From contig JAIELD010000043.1 of NCBI GenBank assembly GCA_019753285.1, positions 1-64,000 of the forward strand: 64,000 nucleotides of DNA, read 5' to 3'. Below the pieces are notes generated by a model. It saw nothing but the letters and a program-made list of their open reading frames with translations, was not told the origin of the DNA and made no database searches. Source of the DNA: Beijerinckiaceae bacterium. Its GTDB lineage: Bacteria; Pseudomonadota; Alphaproteobacteria; Rhizobiales; Beijerinckiaceae. The translations under genes were made by a program, and so were the position numbers. Positions 50,942 through 61,300 of this stretch are shown piece after piece. The number at the start of each line of letters is the position of its first letter. Position 1 is the first letter of the stretch.

Positions 50942-51534
50942 CGCAGACGCTGGGGATCATCCTGGCGGGCGGCCTCTCCACCAGGATGGGCGGCGGCAAC
51001 AAGGGACTGCGCCTGCTCGCCGGCAAGCGGCTGATCGATCATGTTGCGGATCGGCTGAGACCCCAATGCGCGGGGCTCGCGCTCAATGCCAATGACGACG
51101 CCGAATTCGACGGCACGCTGCTGCCGGACGAGACGCCCGGCCTTCCCGGCCCGCTCGCTGGCGTAGAGGCGGGCCTTGCCTGGGCAAGCATCAAGGGCTG
51201 CGGCTGGCTCGTCAGCGCGCCCGCCGACTGCCCCTTCCTGCCGCGCGATCTCGTCGAGCGGCTGCAGGCCCGTCAAGGTGCAACCGGTGCATCCTGCGTC
51301 GTCGCATCATCCGGCAGAAGCGATCATCCGACGGTGGCGCTCTGGCATGTGGGGCTGCTCGACGATCTGAGGCGAGCCCTGCGCGACGAAGGGCTCCGCA
51401 GGGTGCGGTTCTTTCTGGAGCGGCACGGCGCGGCCCGCGCCGAGTGGGACGCAGCGCCTGTCGATCCGTTCCTCAACGTCAACACCGCCGCCGATCTCGA
51501 AGCGGCGGAAGACCTCCTGCCGCTGCTCAGGTAA
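50938..51534 (+). CDS. mobA: molybdenum cofactor guanylyltransferase MobA
   Basis: TLGIILAGGLSTRMGGGNKGLRLLAGKRLIDHV; ATGA overlap with mrp. Confidence 0.95.
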   Translation: MTQTLGIILAGGLSTRMGGGNKGLRLLAGKRLIDHVADRLRPQCAGLALNANDDAEFDGTLLPDETPGLPGPLAGVEAGLAWASIKGCGWLVSAPADCPFLPRDLVERLQARQGATGASCVVASSGRSDHPTVALWHVGLLDDLRRALRDEGLRRVRFFLERHGAARAEWDAAPVDPFLNVNTAADLEAAEDLLPLLR

Positions 51535-52768
51535 GCACCACCGATTGTTCGGCTTCGCGCAGCGCGTCCTCCGCCTTGCCGATATAGTCCCGCGTCAACG
51601 GCGCGTTTTCCTGGCGTTTGGCGATCTGGAGCTGGAAGACCACCGCGTCCTCGTAAAGGAAGGCGGTTTCGGACATCGAAAGATACATCTCCCACATCCG
51701 GCAGAAGCGGTCGTCATAGAGTTTCACCGCCTCGTCGCGCCTTGCGAGGAAGCGGTTGCGCCAGTGGCGCAGTGTTTTCGCGTAGTGCAGCCGCAGCACT
51801 TCGACATCGGTGATGATGAGCTTCGCCCGCTCCGCCGAGGCCGCGATGTCGGAGAGCGACGGAATGTGCCCGCCAGGAAAGATGTATTTGACGATCCAGG
51901 GGTTGGTGAAGGACGGCACGTCGGAGCTGCCGATGGTGTGGAGCAGCATCACCCCGTCATCGGTGAGAAGATCGGCGACCTTGCGGAAGAAAGCGTCGTA
52001 ATAATTGAGGCCGACATGCTCGAACATGCCGACCGAGACGATGCGCTCGAATTTGGCGTCAAGCTCGCGATAATCCTGCAACTGGAAGCGGATGGTGTCT
52101 GCGACGCCCGCCTCCTCCGCCCGGCGCTTGGCGACGGCGAGTTGCTCCTGCGACAGGGTGATGCCCGTGACCTCGCCAGCTTGAGCGACGCGATGCAGGT
52201 AGAGCGCCATGCCGCCCCAGCCGCAGCCAATGTCGAGCACGCGGTTGCCAGGCTCCAGCAGCAGCTTCGCCGCGATATGGCGCTTCTTGGCGAGCTGCGC
52301 CTCCTCAAGTGTCGCGTCATCATGCTCGAAATAGGCACAGGAATATTGCCTGTCCTTGTCGAGGAAGAGATCGTAAAGCCGGTCGTCGAGATCGTAGTGA
52401 TGGGCGACGTTGCTCCGCGCCCTGATCACGCCGTTGTTCTGCAGGAAGCGCCGGGTGATAAAGCGATAGCGCATAACGAGCGCCGTCACGGCCGGCAGGA
52501 TCGAGACCTTGCGTTCGCGCAGCACGAGCGAGAGAAAATCGAAAACGGTGCCTTCCTCGACGAGGATGCGGCTGTCGACATAGAGTTCGCCGAATTTGAG
52601 GTCGGGATCGAGCAGGAAGGCGATCTCGGCCGCACGGTCGACGAAGCGGATGCGCACCGCTCTCCCGGTGCCATCACCGAATTGGTGATGCCGGCCATTC
52701 GCGGTCACGAGTTCCAGCGAGCCCGTCGTGACGAGCTGCCGGAAGACGAATTTCAGCAGGGTGTCCAT
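51527..52768 (-). CDS. cfa: cyclopropane-fatty-acyl-phospholipid synthase family protein
   Basis: NVAHHYDLDDRLYDLFLDKDRQYSCAYFE...VLDIGCGWGGMALYL...FPGGHIPSL. Confidence 0.93.
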   Translation of the reverse strand: MDTLLKFVFRQLVTTGSLELVTANGRHHQFGDGTGRAVRIRFVDRAAEIAFLLDPDLKFGELYVDSRILVEEGTVFDFLSLVLRERKVSILPAVTALVMRYRFITRRFLQNNGVIRARSNVAHHYDLDDRLYDLFLDKDRQYSCAYFEHDDATLEEAQLAKKRHIAAKLLLEPGNRVLDIGCGWGGMALYLHRVAQAGEVTGITLSQEQLAVAKRRAEEAGVADTIRFQLQDYRELDAKFERIVSVGMFEHVGLNYYDAFFRKVADLLTDDGVMLLHTIGSSDVPSFTNPWIVKYIFPGGHIPSLSDIAASAERAKLIITDVEVLRLHYAKTLRHWRNRFLARRDEAVKLYDDRFCRMWEMYLSMSETAFLYEDAVVFQLQIAKRQENAPLTRDYIGKAEDALREAEQSVVLT

Positions 52769-52921
52769 GCCGTCCCCGTTCTGCAGTTGCGGTTTACAAG
52801 CTGAGCCTTCCACCACCGGACAAGGGGCAGTTTCGCCTGCCTCGCCAGTCGGGGCAAGCGTGCGGCGTCGGCCGATGTCAACCGTCGCGCGATGCGTGCT
52901 GCGAGCCTCGGCACAATCTCT

Positions 52922-52962
52922 CCATTTGTTCCAGCAGAATTGAAATAAATCTTAACAAATGG
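52922..52962. promoter_or_regulatory. perfect 9-bp inverted repeat, candidate upstream activator site
   Basis: CCATTTGTT (52922-52930) N23 AACAAATGG (52954-52962). Confidence 0.5.
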
Positions 52963-53035
52963 TGCTTCCTCCATTTTTTGGAGCTTCACGCATGGCCAAT
53001 GAAATAATAATTCAACGTTTTCAATCAGTTGAATT

Positions 53036-53051
53036 TGGCACATCGCTTGCA
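53036..53051 (+). promoter_or_regulatory. sigma-54 (-24/-12) promoter
   Basis: TGGCACATCGCTTGCA: GG-N10-GC spacing exact; predicted TSS ~53062, first start codon at 53089. Confidence 0.8.
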
Positions 53052-53088
53052 AAATCTTGCTTAGCTCCATGAACGCGTTGGAATTTTT

Positions 53089-53784
53089 ATGAATTGGCAA
53101 TTGATCGTCGATTTCGACGGAACGATTTCGCTCGAAGACACCACCGATCTCATCCTTCAGACATTCGCGGAGCCTGCCTGGCAGGAGATCGAGGATGAAT
53201 GGCTCGCCGGCCGCATCGGCTCGCGCGAATGCATGGCCCGTCAGGTTGATCTGCTGCGCGTCAGCCCCGCCGAGCTTGACGCCTTCGTCGACGGCATCCG
53301 CATCGACTGGCACTTCAAGTCATTCGTGCGCCAATGCCAGCGGCTCGAACTGCCGCTGACCATCGTATCAGACGGCCTCGACCTCGTCATCGCCTCGGTG
53401 CTGCGCCGAGCAGGGCTCGAGAACCTGCCGATCACCGCCAACCATCTCGAACATTCGGGTGGAAACCGCTGGAAACTGTCGTCGCCACATGCCTCCAATG
53501 CCTGTCTTGCCCTCAGCGGCACCTGCAAATGTGCGGTCGCCGCGCAGCGGCAGGGTCTGCTGACGCTGGTTATCGGGGACGGGCGCTCCGATCGCTGCGT
53601 CGCCCAGCAGGCTGATTTCGTCTTCGCCAAATCCGGCCTCGTGCGCTTCTGCGAAGAAAAGCAGCTTCCCTACCAGCCCTTCGCGGACTTTGCCCAAGCA
53701 TCGCGCCTTCTCTCCAACCTCCTCGAAATGACACCGGCACAGGGCCTCATCCCAGCCGTCTCCAAGGAATCGATCTATGGATAA
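53089..53784 (+). CDS. MtnX-like HAD-IB family phosphatase
   Basis: MNWQLIVDFDGTISLEDTTDLIL..., LPLTIVSDGLDLVI, LVIGDGRSDRCVAQQADFVFAK. Confidence 0.88.
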   Translation: MNWQLIVDFDGTISLEDTTDLILQTFAEPAWQEIEDEWLAGRIGSRECMARQVDLLRVSPAELDAFVDGIRIDWHFKSFVRQCQRLELPLTIVSDGLDLVIASVLRRAGLENLPITANHLEHSGGNRWKLSSPHASNACLALSGTCKCAVAAQRQGLLTLVIGDGRSDRCVAQQADFVFAKSGLVRFCEEKQLPYQPFADFAQASRLLSNLLEMTPAQGLIPAVSKESIYG

Positions 53785-55228
53785 TCTCACGCTCGACGGC
53801 CGCGATCCCGCCGTCGCCTCCGCCATTCCCGCTCCCTTCCGGCCCGGCACGCATAGCGAGGCCGAACTGCTGGCCCTGGAAGAGCGCTATTGCTCGCATG
53901 GCGACACCGTCCACTACATGAACCCGCCGAAGATTTTTTCCGGCTGCGAAGGCTCCTACATGCTGGACGAGGCGGGCAATCGCTTCCTCGACCTGCAGAT
54001 GTGGTATTCAGCCGTTAATTTCGGCTACAAGAACAAGCGTCTTTCCGATGCGCTGCATCGCCAGATCGACACGCTGCCGCAGGTCGCATCCCAGTATCTG
54101 CATCGCGAGAAGATCGAGCTTGCGACGATGATCGCGCAGGACGCCGAGCGCAAGTTCGGCCATGAGGGCCGCGTCCATTTCAATGTCGGCGGCGCGCAGG
54201 CGGTCGAGGATTCACTGAAAGTCGTGCGCAATGCCTGCAACGGCAAGAGCCTGATGTTCGCCTTCGAGGGCGGCTATCATGGCCGCACATTGGGCGCCTC
54301 CGCCATCACCTCGTCCTACCGCTATCGCCGCCGCTTCGGCCATTTCGGCGACCGCGCGCAGTTCATCGAGTTCCCCTATCACTTCCGCGGCCCCAAGGGC
54401 ATGAGCAAGGAAGAATATGGCGAGCAGTGCGTCGCCAAGTTCGAGCGCCTGTTCGAAACCGAATATAACGGCGTGCTCGACGTGAAGACCGGGCAGGCCG
54501 AATACGCGGCGTTCTATGTCGAGCCGATCCAGGGCACCGGCGGCTACGTGATCCCGCCGAGGAATTTCTTCAAAGGCATCAAGAAGGTTCTCGACCGCTA
54601 CGGCATATTGATGGTGGTCGACGAGATTCAGATGGGCCTCTACCGGACCGGCAAGCTCTGGTCGATCGAGCATTTCGGCGTTCAGCCGGATATCATCGTC
54701 TTCGGCAAGGCGATCACCAACGGGCTCAACCCGCTCTCTGGCATCTGGGCGCGCGACGAGTTGATCAACCCGACGATTTTCCCGCCCGGCTCCACGCACT
54801 CGACCTTCAACGCCAATCCGCTCGGAACCGCCGTGGCGCTGGAAGCGATGAAGATGTTCGAGGAAGAGGATTACGAGACGATGGTCGCCGAGAAGGGTGC
54901 ATATTTCCTTCAAGGCATTCAGGAGCTGAAGCGCCGGCATAAATGCATCGGCGATGTCGACGGCCTCGGCATGGCGCTGCGCATCGAGGTCTGCGAGCCG
55001 CATGACAGCTTCACGCCGTCGAAGGCCCTGGTCGACCGTATGTGCGACGAAGGCATGAAGGCCGACCTCGTCGTCGACGGCAAGCGTTATGGCCTCGTGC
55101 TCGACATTGGCGGCTATTATAAGAACGTCATCACGCTCGCGCCCGCCCTCACCATGACGAGGCAAGAGATCGATCTTGCAATAACCCTGCTCGATCAACT
55201 CTTCACGCGCGTCTCCAAGGCGGCCTGA
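53777..55228 (+). CDS. class III (aspartate aminotransferase family) PLP aminotransferase
   Basis: FYVEPIQGTGGYVIPPRNFFKGIKKVLDRYGILMVVDEIQMGLYRTGKLWSIEHFGVQPDIIVFGKAITNG. Confidence 0.92.
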   Translation: MDNLTLDGRDPAVASAIPAPFRPGTHSEAELLALEERYCSHGDTVHYMNPPKIFSGCEGSYMLDEAGNRFLDLQMWYSAVNFGYKNKRLSDALHRQIDTLPQVASQYLHREKIELATMIAQDAERKFGHEGRVHFNVGGAQAVEDSLKVVRNACNGKSLMFAFEGGYHGRTLGASAITSSYRYRRRFGHFGDRAQFIEFPYHFRGPKGMSKEEYGEQCVAKFERLFETEYNGVLDVKTGQAEYAAFYVEPIQGTGGYVIPPRNFFKGIKKVLDRYGILMVVDEIQMGLYRTGKLWSIEHFGVQPDIIVFGKAITNGLNPLSGIWARDELINPTIFPPGSTHSTFNANPLGTAVALEAMKMFEEEDYETMVAEKGAYFLQGIQELKRRHKCIGDVDGLGMALRIEVCEPHDSFTPSKALVDRMCDEGMKADLVVDGKRYGLVLDIGGYYKNVITLAPALTMTRQEIDLAITLLDQLFTRVSKAA

Positions 55229-55576
55229 GTGTCTCTCGAACTCGTCTTATGGTTCGCGCTCTCCGTTCTGACCGATGTTTCCGGCCAGATCTGCTTCAAG
55301 ATGGGCGCGAACCGGACTGGCGATGGCGGCTGGAAGGACGTGTTGTCCGATCAATGGACGCTCATCGGCGTTCTCATCTACGCGATCGAACTGGTCGTCT
55401 GGCTGCGGATTCTCTCGATCGCGCCGCTCAGCCTCGCCTATCCGGTCGCCAGCCTCAATTTCCTTGGCGTGGTCATCGCGTCGCGGATTTTTCTGAAAGA
55501 GCCCGTCGGCCGCCGCAGGCTGATTGGCTCCAGCCTCATCACCCTTGGCGTCGCCCTCGTCGCCGTAACCGCGTAA
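55229..55576 (+). CDS. SMR/EamA-type half-transporter (4 TM)
   Basis: 115 aa, 4 TM; VVWLRILSIAPLSLAYPVASLNFLGVVIASRIFLKEPVGRRRLIGSSLITLGVALV. Confidence 0.88.
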   Translation: MSLELVLWFALSVLTDVSGQICFKMGANRTGDGGWKDVLSDQWTLIGVLIYAIELVVWLRILSIAPLSLAYPVASLNFLGVVIASRIFLKEPVGRRRLIGSSLITLGVALVAVTA

Positions 55577-55590
55577 GATCAGAAGCCGTC

Positions 55591-56484
55591 ATGACCAGCT
55601 CGACCATCCCCGACAAGTCCATCCATTTCGAAGGCGGCAGGATCGGCATCCTGCTGATCCACGGGCTCGGCGGCACGCCGGTCGAGATGAAGATGACGGC
55701 GCGCGGTTTCGCCAAGGCCGGCTATACCGTGTCGTGCTGCCAGCTCGCGGGCCATTGCGGCAGCGAGGCCGATCTCGTCGCGACAAAGTGGCAGGATTGG
55801 TATGCCAGCGTTGAAAATGCGCTGATCGAGCTGCGCAAGAGCTGCGACATCGTCTTTACGGGCGGCCTCTCCATGGGCGCGATGCTGGCGATCCTCGCCG
55901 CCGCAAGGCACCCCGACAAGGTGGAGGGCGTCCTCAGCTTTGCGCCCACGCTCTGGTATGACGGCTTTTCCCTGCCCTGGACGCGCGTGCTGCTGCGCCC
56001 CCTTTACTGGACGCCGATGGGCCAGCGCTTCCGTTTCGTCGAGAAGGAGCCCTATGGCCTGAAGGACGAGCGCGTGCGCGCCGCGATCGTCAAGGCGATG
56101 CTGGCGGGCGACAGCGCCGAGGCTGGCCTGCTCGGCACGCCGTCGCAATGCCTCAACCAGTTCTGGCGCATGATCGACGTGATCCGCAAAGAGCTGAAAA
56201 CCGTGAAAACGCCTGTCTTCATCGCCCATGCCCGCGAAGACGACATCGCCTCGTTGAAGAACACAATCTATCTGCAGAAGCATCTGGGCGGCATCGTCGA
56301 GACGCTGGTGCTCGACGACAGCTATCATCTGGTGACGATCGACCGCCAGCGCGACATCGTGGTCGAGCGGGCGCTCTCCTTCGTGCGCTGGGTATCGGAG
56401 AAGATCGAGACGAAACGCACGCGCGATCTGCTCAGCGCCAGCCGCACCGGCGGCAATGTCGTGCCGCTGAGAGCCTCCGAATAG
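55591..56484 (+). CDS. alpha/beta hydrolase (carboxylesterase-like)
   Basis: IGILLIHGLGGTPVEMKMTARGFAKAGYTV..., GGLSMGAMLAILAA. Confidence 0.9.
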   Translation: MTSSTIPDKSIHFEGGRIGILLIHGLGGTPVEMKMTARGFAKAGYTVSCCQLAGHCGSEADLVATKWQDWYASVENALIELRKSCDIVFTGGLSMGAMLAILAAARHPDKVEGVLSFAPTLWYDGFSLPWTRVLLRPLYWTPMGQRFRFVEKEPYGLKDERVRAAIVKAMLAGDSAEAGLLGTPSQCLNQFWRMIDVIRKELKTVKTPVFIAHAREDDIASLKNTIYLQKHLGGIVETLVLDDSYHLVTIDRQRDIVVERALSFVRWVSEKIETKRTRDLLSASRTGGNVVPLRASE

Positions 56485-56492
56485 GCGGGACC

Positions 56493-57656
56493 GTGCCCTT
56501 CGAAGCGGAGATCGTTCCGCGCATCGGTGAGATCGACCGGGCGGACTGGGAGCGCTGCCTGCCGAACGAGGCCGAGAATCATGATTATTATCGCGCCTGC
56601 GAGGAAAGCCCGCACGCGTCATACGCCATCATGGCTGGCGTGGTGCGGCGGGCCGGAACGGTCGTCGCGGTCGCGCCGGCCTTCGTGCTGACATACAGGC
56701 TCGACACGCCGTTTCAGGGCGCGCTGCGGCGGATGAGCGAGCGTATCTATCGCGCCGCGCCACGCCTCATCTCCTTCAAGGTGCTGGCGCTCGGCTCTCC
56801 GCTGGCCGAACGCTGCCATCTCGGCTTCGCGCCCGAGCTTTCGCCGCCGGAGCGGGCCGAGGCCTTCGACGCGCTGCTCGGCGCGCTCGGTCGCGAAGCG
56901 CGCTCGCTGAAAGCCGGCCTCGTCGCCCTGAAAGACCTCGACGGCAGGGATGCAGAGCGCCATGCCGAGACGCTTCGGCAGCGGGGCTTCGCCCGCGTCA
57001 ACAGCCTGCCGGTGGCGGTGCTCGATCTCCCTTCGAGCGAAGAGGCCTATATTGCGCGCCTGTCGACCAATACCCGCAGCTCGTTCAGGCGCAAACTCAA
57101 ATCCGCAAAGCATCTGCGCATCGAATACCGCGAGGCGATCGACGGCCTCGAGGACGAGATCATGTCGCTCTACGAGGAAACGCGCACCCAGAGCGGGCTC
57201 GACTATGGCGATCTTGAAACCTTGCCGGCCGGCTATTTCGGCGCGGTCATGCGCAATCTCAATCAAACTGGAAACGAGCCAGCCCGGGCCGGCATTCTTC
57301 TCTTCTGGCTGGAGGATCGCCTGATCGGTTTCAACCTGCTGCTGTTCGAACCGGGCCGGGTCATCGACAAGTTCATCGGCCGGCGATATCCTGTCTCGAA
57401 AGACTATCACCTGTTCTTCGTCGGTTGGATGGAGAATGTCCGTGTGGCCTTGAAGCGCGGCGCGAGCACGCTCCAGTCCGGACAGACTCATTACGCCGTG
57501 AAGGTGCGGTTGGGCAGCCGGCTCGAACCTTCGTTCCTCTATTTTCGTCACCGCAACCCGCTCATCAACCGGGTGCTGCGGCTGATCAGCGGGCTGATCG
57601 CGTTCGACAAGCTCGATCCCGATCTCCGCGAGCTTCGCAAGGCGGACAAGGCGTGA
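56493..57656 (+). CDS. FemAB/BioF2-like GNAT-fold acyltransferase
   Basis: GTG start; STNTRSSFRRKLKSAKHLRIEYREAI...GILLFWLEDRLIGFNLLLFEPGRVIDKFIGRRYPVSKDYHLFFVGWMENVRVALKRGASTLQSGQTHYAVKVRLG. Confidence 0.82.
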   Translation: MPFEAEIVPRIGEIDRADWERCLPNEAENHDYYRACEESPHASYAIMAGVVRRAGTVVAVAPAFVLTYRLDTPFQGALRRMSERIYRAAPRLISFKVLALGSPLAERCHLGFAPELSPPERAEAFDALLGALGREARSLKAGLVALKDLDGRDAERHAETLRQRGFARVNSLPVAVLDLPSSEEAYIARLSTNTRSSFRRKLKSAKHLRIEYREAIDGLEDEIMSLYEETRTQSGLDYGDLETLPAGYFGAVMRNLNQTGNEPARAGILLFWLEDRLIGFNLLLFEPGRVIDKFIGRRYPVSKDYHLFFVGWMENVRVALKRGASTLQSGQTHYAVKVRLGSRLEPSFLYFRHRNPLINRVLRLISGLIAFDKLDPDLRELRKADKA

Positions 57657-58057
57657 CGACCGATCCAAGACCGCAGCTCTCCCGGCCGAAGCTCGCGAGA
57701 TCTGACCTGCTGCGCATGTGGGTCGCCTTCATCGGCCTCGCGACGCTCGTCCAGCTCCTGTTCAAGAAAGCCGGCGAGGCGCTGGAGCATGTCGACGGCG
57801 TCTCGGGCTTTGCCTCCACCGCGTTGCACTCGCCCTGGGTCTGGGCGTCCATCGTATGTTACATCGTCGTCTTTTTGTTCTGGATCAAGATCCTGCAGCG
57901 CATGGATCTGGCGCAGGCCTTCCCGATGACCGGCCTCACCTATATGACGGTGCCGCTGAGCGCGACCGTGCTGTTCGGCGAACGCATCGATCTGGCGCAC
58001 GGTATCGGCATCGGGCTCATCCTCGCCGGGGTATTCGTGCTCGGGAGCGAGGAATGA
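57653..58057 (+). CDS. SMR/EamA-type half-transporter (second)
   Basis: GTG start overlapping the previous stop; IVVFLFWIKILQRMDLAQAFPMTGLTYMTVPLSATVLFGERIDLAHGIGIGLILAGVFVLGSEE. Confidence 0.87.
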   Translation: MTTDPRPQLSRPKLARSDLLRMWVAFIGLATLVQLLFKKAGEALEHVDGVSGFASTALHSPWVWASIVCYIVVFLFWIKILQRMDLAQAFPMTGLTYMTVPLSATVLFGERIDLAHGIGIGLILAGVFVLGSEE

Positions 58058-59811
58058 TCGTCTCGCTCCGCTCCCTGCGCGCCAGGCTCATTCTCGCCTT
58101 CGTGCTGGTGAGCGTGCCGCCCATGCTCACCGCAACCTATATCGGCGCGCGGCTGATCTCGGACGCGTTCGAAGCCAATGTCGAGCAATGGCTGGAGGAG
58201 ACCTCGCGCTTCTTCGCCTATGGCGTGACGGATGCCGAGAACGAGGCTGAGCGCGCCTCCAAGGTCATCGTACGCCGGCTGGAGACGACAAACATTGCGG
58301 ACGAAACCGGACGCGAGGACATGCGCCAGGATTTCGAGCTGCTGCAGTCTGTCGGCTATGATCTCATCTTCGTTTATGACGAAAACCATCAGACCGTCTT
58401 TTCGAACAGCAGCTTCGAGGGCGTTGACGCGCTGCCGCTCGAACGCAAGCGCGGCATTTTCGAAGTGACCATCGAAGGCGTGCCGCTTCTGCTTGCAGGA
58501 TCGATCGCGCCCGTCACCTCCGGCGACCGCCAGCTCTATCTGTTGATCGGCACCCGGCTCGACCAGAGCTATCTCAGCAACATCAAGGTCATCACCTCGC
58601 TCGACGTTCGGCTGTTCCGGCGCACGCCCGGCGGCTTCGAGGCCTTCAGGAGCAATGGTTCGAACGCTCCGCTGCCAAAGCTGCCGGACGCCATCATCTC
58701 CAAGCTCGCCGCCGGAGACGAAATCGTGTTCGACCAGACCGTCGCCGAAGGCACGTTCAGGGCGGTCTACGCGGCGCTGCGCGATTTCAACGGCGCTCTC
58801 GTCGGCGTGCTGTTCATCGGGCTGGAGACAAGCGAGAGCTTCTTCGAGCAGATCGGCCAATGGCAGCTTTTCTCCGGCATCTTCCTATTCGGCTCGCTCA
58901 TCTCCATCGTCACGGGCCTCTGGATGTCGGGCCTGCTCGTCAAGCCGCTGAAAGCCTTGACGAAAGGCGTGCGCGCCATCACGTCGGGCGACTATCAGAG
59001 CCGCGTCGAGGAGGTCGGCAGCCGCGAAATCCAGGAACTCGCCATCGGGTTCAACGGCATGACGGCCGAGCTCGAAAAACTGCGCGGGCTCGAGGAGGAG
59101 CTGAGGCGGCGCGACCGCCTCACTGCGCTCGGCGAGGCGGCGATGGTCATCGCGCATGAGGTGCGCAACCCGCTCGGCATCATCAAGACATCGGCGGAAG
59201 TGGTGCGCAAACGCGCGCAGATGAGCGCATCCGACGAGCGCCTGCTTGGCTACGTCGTCGACGAGGTTCGGCGCATCGAGAGGCTGATCCGCGAATTCCT
59301 CGATTTCGCGCGCCCGAAAGTTCCGGCGAAGATCGCCATGGACGTGCGCACCCTCGTCGACCGCGTCACCGCCGTCGCCAAGGTGGAGTTACAGAAACAG
59401 AACGTCTCTCTTGAAATCATCGAGAAGGCGAGCGACGTGCAATGCCTGTTCGACATGGACCAGTTGCACCAGGCGCTGCTCAATCTCGTGCTGAACGCAC
59501 TTGACGCCATGCCGGGCGGCGGCCATCTCACCATCACGATCGCAGCAACCGAACATGAAGCCTCGATCACGGTCGCCGATACGGGAACCGGCATCGCGCC
59601 GGACATCGCCGAGAAGATCTTCAACCCGTTCTTCACCACCAAGGCGAAGGGCACGGGCCTCGGGCTCGCCAAGGTGCAGCACGTGGCAGAAGCGCATGGC
59701 GGTGCGGCGGCCTGCCAGAGCGTGCCGGGCAAGGGCGCAGCCTTCACCATCACCCTGCCGCTGGTGGAAGCGGAGCCGCAACGGAAGAAGCCGGCCCTGG
59801 AGCCTGCGTGA
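58054..59811 (+). CDS. sensor histidine kinase (periplasmic Cache-like sensor, HAMP, HisKA, HATPase)
   Basis: Two TM flanking a ~270 aa sensor; LGEAAMVIAHEVRNPLGIIKTSAEVV H-box; LVLNALDAMPGG; GTGLGLAKV. Confidence 0.93.
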   Translation: MIVSLRSLRARLILAFVLVSVPPMLTATYIGARLISDAFEANVEQWLEETSRFFAYGVTDAENEAERASKVIVRRLETTNIADETGREDMRQDFELLQSVGYDLIFVYDENHQTVFSNSSFEGVDALPLERKRGIFEVTIEGVPLLLAGSIAPVTSGDRQLYLLIGTRLDQSYLSNIKVITSLDVRLFRRTPGGFEAFRSNGSNAPLPKLPDAIISKLAAGDEIVFDQTVAEGTFRAVYAALRDFNGALVGVLFIGLETSESFFEQIGQWQLFSGIFLFGSLISIVTGLWMSGLLVKPLKALTKGVRAITSGDYQSRVEEVGSREIQELAIGFNGMTAELEKLRGLEEELRRRDRLTALGEAAMVIAHEVRNPLGIIKTSAEVVRKRAQMSASDERLLGYVVDEVRRIERLIREFLDFARPKVPAKIAMDVRTLVDRVTAVAKVELQKQNVSLEIIEKASDVQCLFDMDQLHQALLNLVLNALDAMPGGGHLTITIAATEHEASITVADTGTGIAPDIAEKIFNPFFTTKAKGTGLGLAKVQHVAEAHGGAAACQSVPGKGAAFTITLPLVEAEPQRKKPALEPA

Positions 59812-59920
59812 AGGGACGCCCCGCTTCAGCCGGGCAATCGCGCCTTGCACGCTTCCTGCTTCCAGACCATGGCCTTACCCGCCTTGTTCCTGCACCGATA
59901 GCGCTTTATGGACATCTCCG

Positions 59921-61300
59921 ATGAAGCACAGAATTCTTGTCGTCGATGACGAGGTGCGCCTTGCGGACGTTTTGACGGTCGCGCTCGAAGACCTCGGCTA
60001 CAGTGCTGTCGCCGCCGAAAATGCCGCCGACGCGCTCGACGTGCTTTCACGCGAGCCGATCGATCTCGTGCTCACCGATCTGCGCCTGCCGGGCATGGAC
60101 GGGCGCGGCCTGCTTGCCGAAATTCGCAGGCTCTATCCGGAAGTTCCGGTCGTGCTGATCACGGCCTTTGCCTCCGTTCGCGATGCCGTCGACCTGATCA
60201 AGGAAGGGGCGTTCGACTACATAGCGAAGCCCTTCGAGATGGAGGACGTGGCGGCGACGGTGGTGCGCGCGCTCCGCCTCAACGAGGTCGTCAAGGACAA
60301 TGAGCGCCTTCGCGCGGAACTCGAGGGCCGCTACAGCTTCGACCATCTGATCGGCACCAGCGCGCCGTTCCGCCGCGTGATCGAACAGGTGACGGAGGTC
60401 TGCGAAAGCCGCGCCACCGTGCTGCTCACCGGCGAAAGCGGCACCGGCAAGGAGGTCGTGGCGCGGGCCATCCACTTCAACAGCCCGCGCAGCAAGCGGC
60501 CCTTCATCGCGGTCAATTGCGCGGCGATCCCGGCGGGGCTCCTCGAGAGCGAGCTGTTCGGCCATGTGAAGGGTGCATTCACCGGCGCACTGGCAAACCG
60601 GCAGGGCCGCTTCGCGCTCGCCAATGGCGGCACGCTGCTCCTAGACGAGATCGGTGACATGCCTGTCGCCATCCAGGCGAAGATCCTGCGCGTGCTGCAG
60701 GAGCGCACCTTCGAGCCTGTCGGCGGTACGCAGACGATCGAGACCGACGTGCGCATCATCGCGGCGACGCACAAGGACCTGCTGCAGGCTGTCGGCGAAG
60801 GGGCCTTCCGCGAGGACCTTTATTACCGGCTGAACGTCTTTCCGATCGAACTGCCGGCGCTGCGCGAACGGCGCGAGGACATTCCGCTCATCGCGAGCTA
60901 TTTTCTCGGCCAGTTCGTGACCGACATGGGCAAGCGCATCACGGGTTTCGCGCCGAAGGCGCAGGCCGCGATGATGGCCTATCGCTGGCCCGGCAACATT
61001 CGCGAGTTGCAGAACTGCGTGGAGCGGGCGGTGATCGTCGCGCGCGGCGCGCTCATCGAGATGCAGGACCTGCCGCGCTACGTGCTGGAGGCCGGCGGCG
61101 GCGCGGACGGTCCGGCGACCCTGCCGGCCGACATCGACGCCGAACTCATGCGGCAGGAGCGCAATTTCATCATGCGGGCGCTCGAGGAAAGCGGCGGCGT
61201 GCAGATCAGGGCGGCCGAGATTCTCGGCATCTCGGAACGGAGCCTCTGGCACCGCATCAAGAAACACGACATCAGGATCGTGAAGCGCACCACGCCCTAG
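59921..61300 (+). CDS. sigma-54-dependent response regulator (NtrC family)
   Basis: Receiver LTDLRLPGMDG; TGESGTGKE; GHVKGAFTGA; AAEILGISERSLWHRIKKHDI. Confidence 0.95.
   Translation: MKHRILVVDDEVRLADVLTVALEDLGYSAVAAENAADALDVLSREPIDLVLTDLRLPGMDGRGLLAEIRRLYPEVPVVLITAFASVRDAVDLIKEGAFDYIAKPFEMEDVAATVVRALRLNEVVKDNERLRAELEGRYSFDHLIGTSAPFRRVIEQVTEVCESRATVLLTGESGTGKEVVARAIHFNSPRSKRPFIAVNCAAIPAGLLESELFGHVKGAFTGALANRQGRFALANGGTLLLDEIGDMPVAIQAKILRVLQERTFEPVGGTQTIETDVRIIAATHKDLLQAVGEGAFREDLYYRLNVFPIELPALRERREDIPLIASYFLGQFVTDMGKRITGFAPKAQAAMMAYRWPGNIRELQNCVERAVIVARGALIEMQDLPRYVLEAGGGADGPATLPADIDAELMRQERNFIMRALEESGGVQIRAAEILGISERSLWHRIKKHDIRIVKRTTP

Follow-up and report, generated by a model that had tools for sequence, protein, structure and literature searches.

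Introduction

The closest described relatives of the system presented here are NtrC and the AtoC/ZraR activators. NtrC, as it acts at glnA and nifLA, is a response regulator with a sigma-54 activator domain and a Fis-type helix-turn-helix (HTH), and has paired palindromic dimer sites upstream of a -24/-12 promoter; a passage of PMC7408454 citing Minchin et al. 1989 reports that its action at nifLA depends on the face of the helix. Our locus resembles NtrC in all of these respects but differs in its palindrome (consensus CTMCAAAWTTTGKAG), the 19-bp tandem spacing, and a single dedicated target operon, and its regulator scores 430.8 bits against the NtrC equivalog TIGR01818 (NCBIfam), below the cut-off of 558.6 bits. 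The regulator's best family score is with the AtoC equivalog NF008469 (504.1 bits, again below the cut-off of 714), and as with AtoC and ZraR a two-component activator lies beside its putative target operon, with a kinase closest to AtoS/ZraS; unlike in those systems, neither cut-off is reached and the operon content differs. Local sigma-54 regulons predicted in Desulfovibrio (PMC4641369) and Clostridiales (PMC6615313), where a local activator, a conserved palindrome, and a sigma-54 promoter were likewise deduced by comparison, involve other operons and other motifs.

Organization of the operon

The window is the whole 64,000-nucleotide stretch of Beijerinckiaceae DNA that was analysed. The operon and its divergent neighbor are as follows.

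51527-52816, - strand: cfa, cyclopropane-fatty-acid synthase-like, divergent to the operon
53089-53784, + strand: MtnX-like HAD-IB phosphatase, first gene of the operon
53777-55228, + strand: class III aminotransferase
55229-55576, + strand: ArnE/SMR-like small transporter
55573-56484, + strand: alpha/beta hydrolase (start codon approximate)
56481-57656, + strand: conserved protein, GNAT-like by inspection only (start codon approximate)
57650-58057, + strand: ArnF/SMR-like small transporter
58054-59811, + strand: sensor histidine kinase with HAMP, HisKA, and HATPase domains and a weak CHASE4 match
59921-61300, + strand: NtrC-type response regulator with receiver, Sigma54_activat domain with GAFTGA, and Fis-type HTH; predicted to bind the palindrome described below

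Among the NCBIfam matches of the enzymes and transporters, only those of the phosphatase, to its subfamily and superfamily, pass their cut-offs; the transporters closest to ArnE and ArnF score below theirs, and the protein encoded at 56481-57656 has no match in Pfam or NCBIfam. The contents point weakly to envelope lipid or glycolipid modification, possibly with an amine-bearing product, and we found no characterised counterpart of the combination of phosphatase, aminotransferase, hydrolase, and transporters (53777-58057). A cfa gene is divergent to or near the operon at four other loci (L002, L016, L023, and L173), and at two Rhizobium loci (L096, L104) and one from Variovorax (L036) it lies close to the phosphatase gene, a recurrent proximity hinting at a common membrane role. 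We also note that the 109-bp gap between the kinase and regulator genes contains TTGCACGCTTCCTGC (59845-59859), which resembles a weak sigma-54 element with two mismatches and may be chance.

A conserved palindrome upstream of the operon

The intergenic region between cfa and the operon contains the following elements.

52920-52934, + strand: weak palindrome copy CTCCATTTGTTCCAG, matching perfectly in its left half and poorly in its right; contains the left arm of the dyad
52922-52962, arms 52922-52930 and 52954-52962: inverted repeat (dyad) CCATTTGTT-N23-AACAAATGG; real, not conserved
52950-52964, + strand: imperfect second palindrome copy TCTTAACAAATGGTG; precedes the main one by 19 bp, a tandem spacing seen across loci
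52969-52983, + strand: main palindrome CTCCATTTTTTGGAG; the operon's NtrC-type regulator is predicted to use it as its high-affinity enhancer site
53019-53031, + strand: IHF-like sequence TTTCAATCAGTTG, one mismatch to WATCAANNNNTTR, just upstream of the -24 element
53036-53050, + strand: sigma-54 promoter (-24/-12) TGGCACatcgcTTGC, a perfect match to the consensus TGGCAC-N5-TTGC, conserved across loci

Orthologues of the first gene were collected from relatives and from named genomes, and three duplicate contigs (Bosea, Camelimonas, and a Hyphomicrobiales MAG) were dropped from the counts. Comparison of the loci yielded the palindromic pattern CTMCA-W5-TGKAG, which in the window lies just downstream of the dyad and is easily missed because its strict arms are only 5 bp long. 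It was first noticed in 23 orthologous upstream regions, 5' of the sigma-54 element, and was then recovered in a further, largely independent set of loci comprising Bosea, Camelimonas, Ancylobacter, Azospirillum, Oleisolibacter, Rubritepida, and many Pseudomonas. In the one genome of the same genus that was compared (G001), the palindrome (CTACATTTTTTGTAG) and the promoter are present and the dyad is absent.

The window's own genome (3.47 Mb, 82% complete) has a single copy of the strict motif, and none of 20 relatives with the operon has more than two. Together with TGGC at the right distance the motif is found in 17 of the 298 genomes of the family, 14 of which carry the HAD phosphatase gene, and a reversed control pattern has one match in the same 298 genomes. 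Extra genome-wide matches in G116, G006, G118, and G001 (C25) lack both neighboring operon genes and a complete -12 element, and were set aside as probable chance occurrences. No obvious covariation is seen between the recognition helix and the C/A difference that separates CTCC from CTAC half-sites, and an alignment of four operon-upstream regions beside cfa, one of them (G144) misaligned, adds no other clearly shared block to these two elements, the palindrome and the promoter. A search of the open-access literature for three forms of the motif letters, or for the operon, gave no match.

Co-occurrence of the palindrome and the regulator

The palindrome and a sigma-54 promoter are present together at all 48 loci with a linked regulator gene and at one of 44 without (Fisher p about 1e-25, uncorrected for kinship); nominal p-values are too small because the loci are related. 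This count covers 92 distinct loci, those without a linked regulator being included only with at least 8 kb of downstream sequence, and the pattern extends over two classes. At the regulator-less loci (e.g. in Stenotrophomonas, Rhodanobacter, Dyella, and Acinetobacter) the same phosphatase gene is arranged differently. The one exception, L006 (G031), has the palindrome and a degenerate sigma-54 element with no linked regulator within 10 kb; either its regulator is encoded elsewhere or the site is a relic. With its domain set, a -24/-12 promoter, rpoN in the genome, and the palindrome at 52969-52983 tied to the regulator, the system has these features of an NtrC-type bEBP system, and it is this palindrome, not the dyad, that has the character of an upstream enhancer linked to the regulator.

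One relative, G011, has a second perfect palindrome (L173:5825-5839) 2.5 kb upstream of the operon. It is followed by TGGCACggaggTTGC and precedes another aminotransferase-like gene, and is likely a second target of the regulator.

Helical phasing with the sigma-54 promoter

From the sigma-54 element, a transcription start site is expected near 53061. The main palindrome is 67 bp upstream of this element in the window, and across 42 dereplicated loci the distances from the start of the palindrome to TGGCAC cluster at 67-71, 78-80, and 88-92, with single cases at 98, 102, and 113. A period of 10.5-10.7 bp describes these distances with R=0.79 (n=42), a fit equalled by none of 20000 random sets; the phasing persists without Pseudomonas (0/4000) and when each distance is counted once (1/4000). 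Palindrome and promoter lie on almost the same face of the helix; dependence on the helical face is already known for NtrC at nifLA. Pseudomonas alone shows distances of both 68-69 and 78-80, and so the site has shifted by one turn among close relatives.

In 13 of the 42 loci, where 2.4 would be expected, an IHF-like sequence with at most one mismatch lies between the palindrome and the promoter; most of these sequences begin 17-18 or 29-31 bp before TGGCAC. Beside the -24 element of the window there is also an 8-bp inverted repeat, AATTCAAC-N11-GTTGAATT (53009-53035), which overlaps two IHF-like matches and which the IHF-like sequence at 53019-53031 may explain.

A tandem copy at 19 bp

When the surroundings of the main site are scanned with the motif, a single offset stands out, 19 bp (z>5), reached by none of 20000 permutations among 25 collapsed loci. 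The second copy is upstream of the main site in most loci and downstream of it in the Bosea group. In the window it occupies 52950-52964, where the right half alone matches the motif, and this half is the right arm of the dyad.

The inverted repeat and alternative readings

The first-pass annotation had proposed the dyad as the binding site of the operon's own regulator. The repeat is exact as described, with perfect 9-bp arms and an N23 spacer, and its placement about 120 bp from the sigma-54 start site is borne out, the dyad center being ~119 bp from the predicted start. Comparison of orthologous upstream regions, the check suggested there, finds the dyad at none of 103 other loci, the same-genus genome included, nor any dyad-like sequence with up to 4 mismatches and a spacer of 18-28. 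When 41 other promoters are anchored on the palindrome, 2.3 of 9 bases pair at the dyad position, as in slid controls (1.8-2.5), and the dyad was rejected as a conserved site. The dyad-specific claim falls because the repeat is not conserved, one half of what the annotation itself had named as telling against it; the part that the operon's own regulator binds in this region is probably right, with the adjoining conserved palindrome as the site in place of the dyad.

The dyad is real, yet it is no more than chance readily yields. When the 272-bp intergenic region was dinucleotide-shuffled 400 times, 29 of the shuffles (~7%) had at least one perfect inverted repeat with arms of at least 9 and a spacer of at most 40, and 19 such repeats occur in the window; the zero expectation for the exact dyad pattern is that of a pattern picked post hoc and is no valid test. 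These counts, with the lack of conservation, favor somewhat the reading that the dyad as such arose by chance in an AT-rich spacer and that its left arm has no role, which is compatible with enhancer function of the palindrome. Against it, the right arm falls at the 19-bp offset that is conserved, and each arm resembles CTCCATTT, the conserved half-site.

That resemblance could instead mean, more doubtfully, that the arms are additional species-specific half-sites strengthening the enhancer upstream of its tandem core, which is equally compatible with that function. By motif score the copy at 52920-52934 ranks second in the intergenic region, and the right arm belongs to the 19-bp copy; two extra CTCCATTT-type half-sites recur in 20 of 1500 shuffles (~1.3%), in a test chosen after looking at the sequence. 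The left-arm copy, however, is offset from the main site by 49 bp, which no other locus shows, and the left arm is on the opposite helical face. On these comparisons we regard the dyad as a by-product of putative regulator half-sites, or as chance.

Co-occurrence could also reflect a different DNA-binding protein that moves together with the operon. The palindrome, lying in the divergent region with cfa nearby in several relatives, might be the operator of some other protein (e.g. a repressor or a cfa regulator). We think this improbable: the palindrome is present at many loci without an adjacent cfa, it tracks the regulator, and it is phased to the sigma-54 promoter.

A single NtrC-type dimer site spans about 15-17 bp in all. 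The dyad as the regulator's main site is very improbable despite its perfect arms, their likeness to the half-site, and a suitable distance from the promoter, since no other locus has it, about 7% of local shuffles have an equal repeat by chance, arms 32 bp apart center to center do not fit one dimer, and a conserved palindrome adjoins it.

Discussion

NtrC-type activation at a dedicated two-site enhancer of the sigma-54 operon is very probably the best explanation of these observations, on the basis, from sequence and comparison, of the palindrome, the promoter, the regulator co-occurrence, the helical spacing, and the 19-bp tandem copy. The tandem palindrome, rather than the dyad, is the most likely enhancer. 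Stimulation of the sensor kinase would lead to phosphorylation of the regulator encoded at the end of the operon, a dimer of which would bind CTCCATTTTTTGGAG (52969-52983), with a second dimer joining, presumably cooperatively, at the imperfect copy (52950-52964). The oligomer would then contact sigma-54 polymerase at 53036-53050, possibly assisted by IHF bending at 53019-53031, and the open complex would form. The dyad would be no separate site: the right arm would belong to the second copy as its half-site, and the left arm would be either chance or a half-site particular to this species. Because the operon encodes its own kinase and regulator, it is probably self-amplifying. Counting against this explanation, the second copy in the window is weak, a spacing of 19 bp falls between whole helical turns, L006 has site and promoter with no regulator gene linked to them, and the C/A difference between half-sites follows no obvious change in the recognition helix.

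The palindrome is a new and well-supported predicted site in a kind of system that is already known. Whether the regulator is an undescribed two-component sigma-54 activator of one envelope-modification operon in the Alpha- and Gammaproteobacteria, with a two-dimer enhancer at a fixed 19 bp in which either site may be the strong one and which slides by whole turns, we consider evenly balanced. The spacing reads as a natural experiment, suggesting that the face-of-helix constraint on sigma-54 enhancers is kept in evolution, with shifts by single turns. A precise candidate enhancer takes the place of a non-conserved guess. Its presumed activator, so far uncharacterised, occurs in several lineages of Proteobacteria, among them many Pseudomonas species in which the enhancer would be readily testable.
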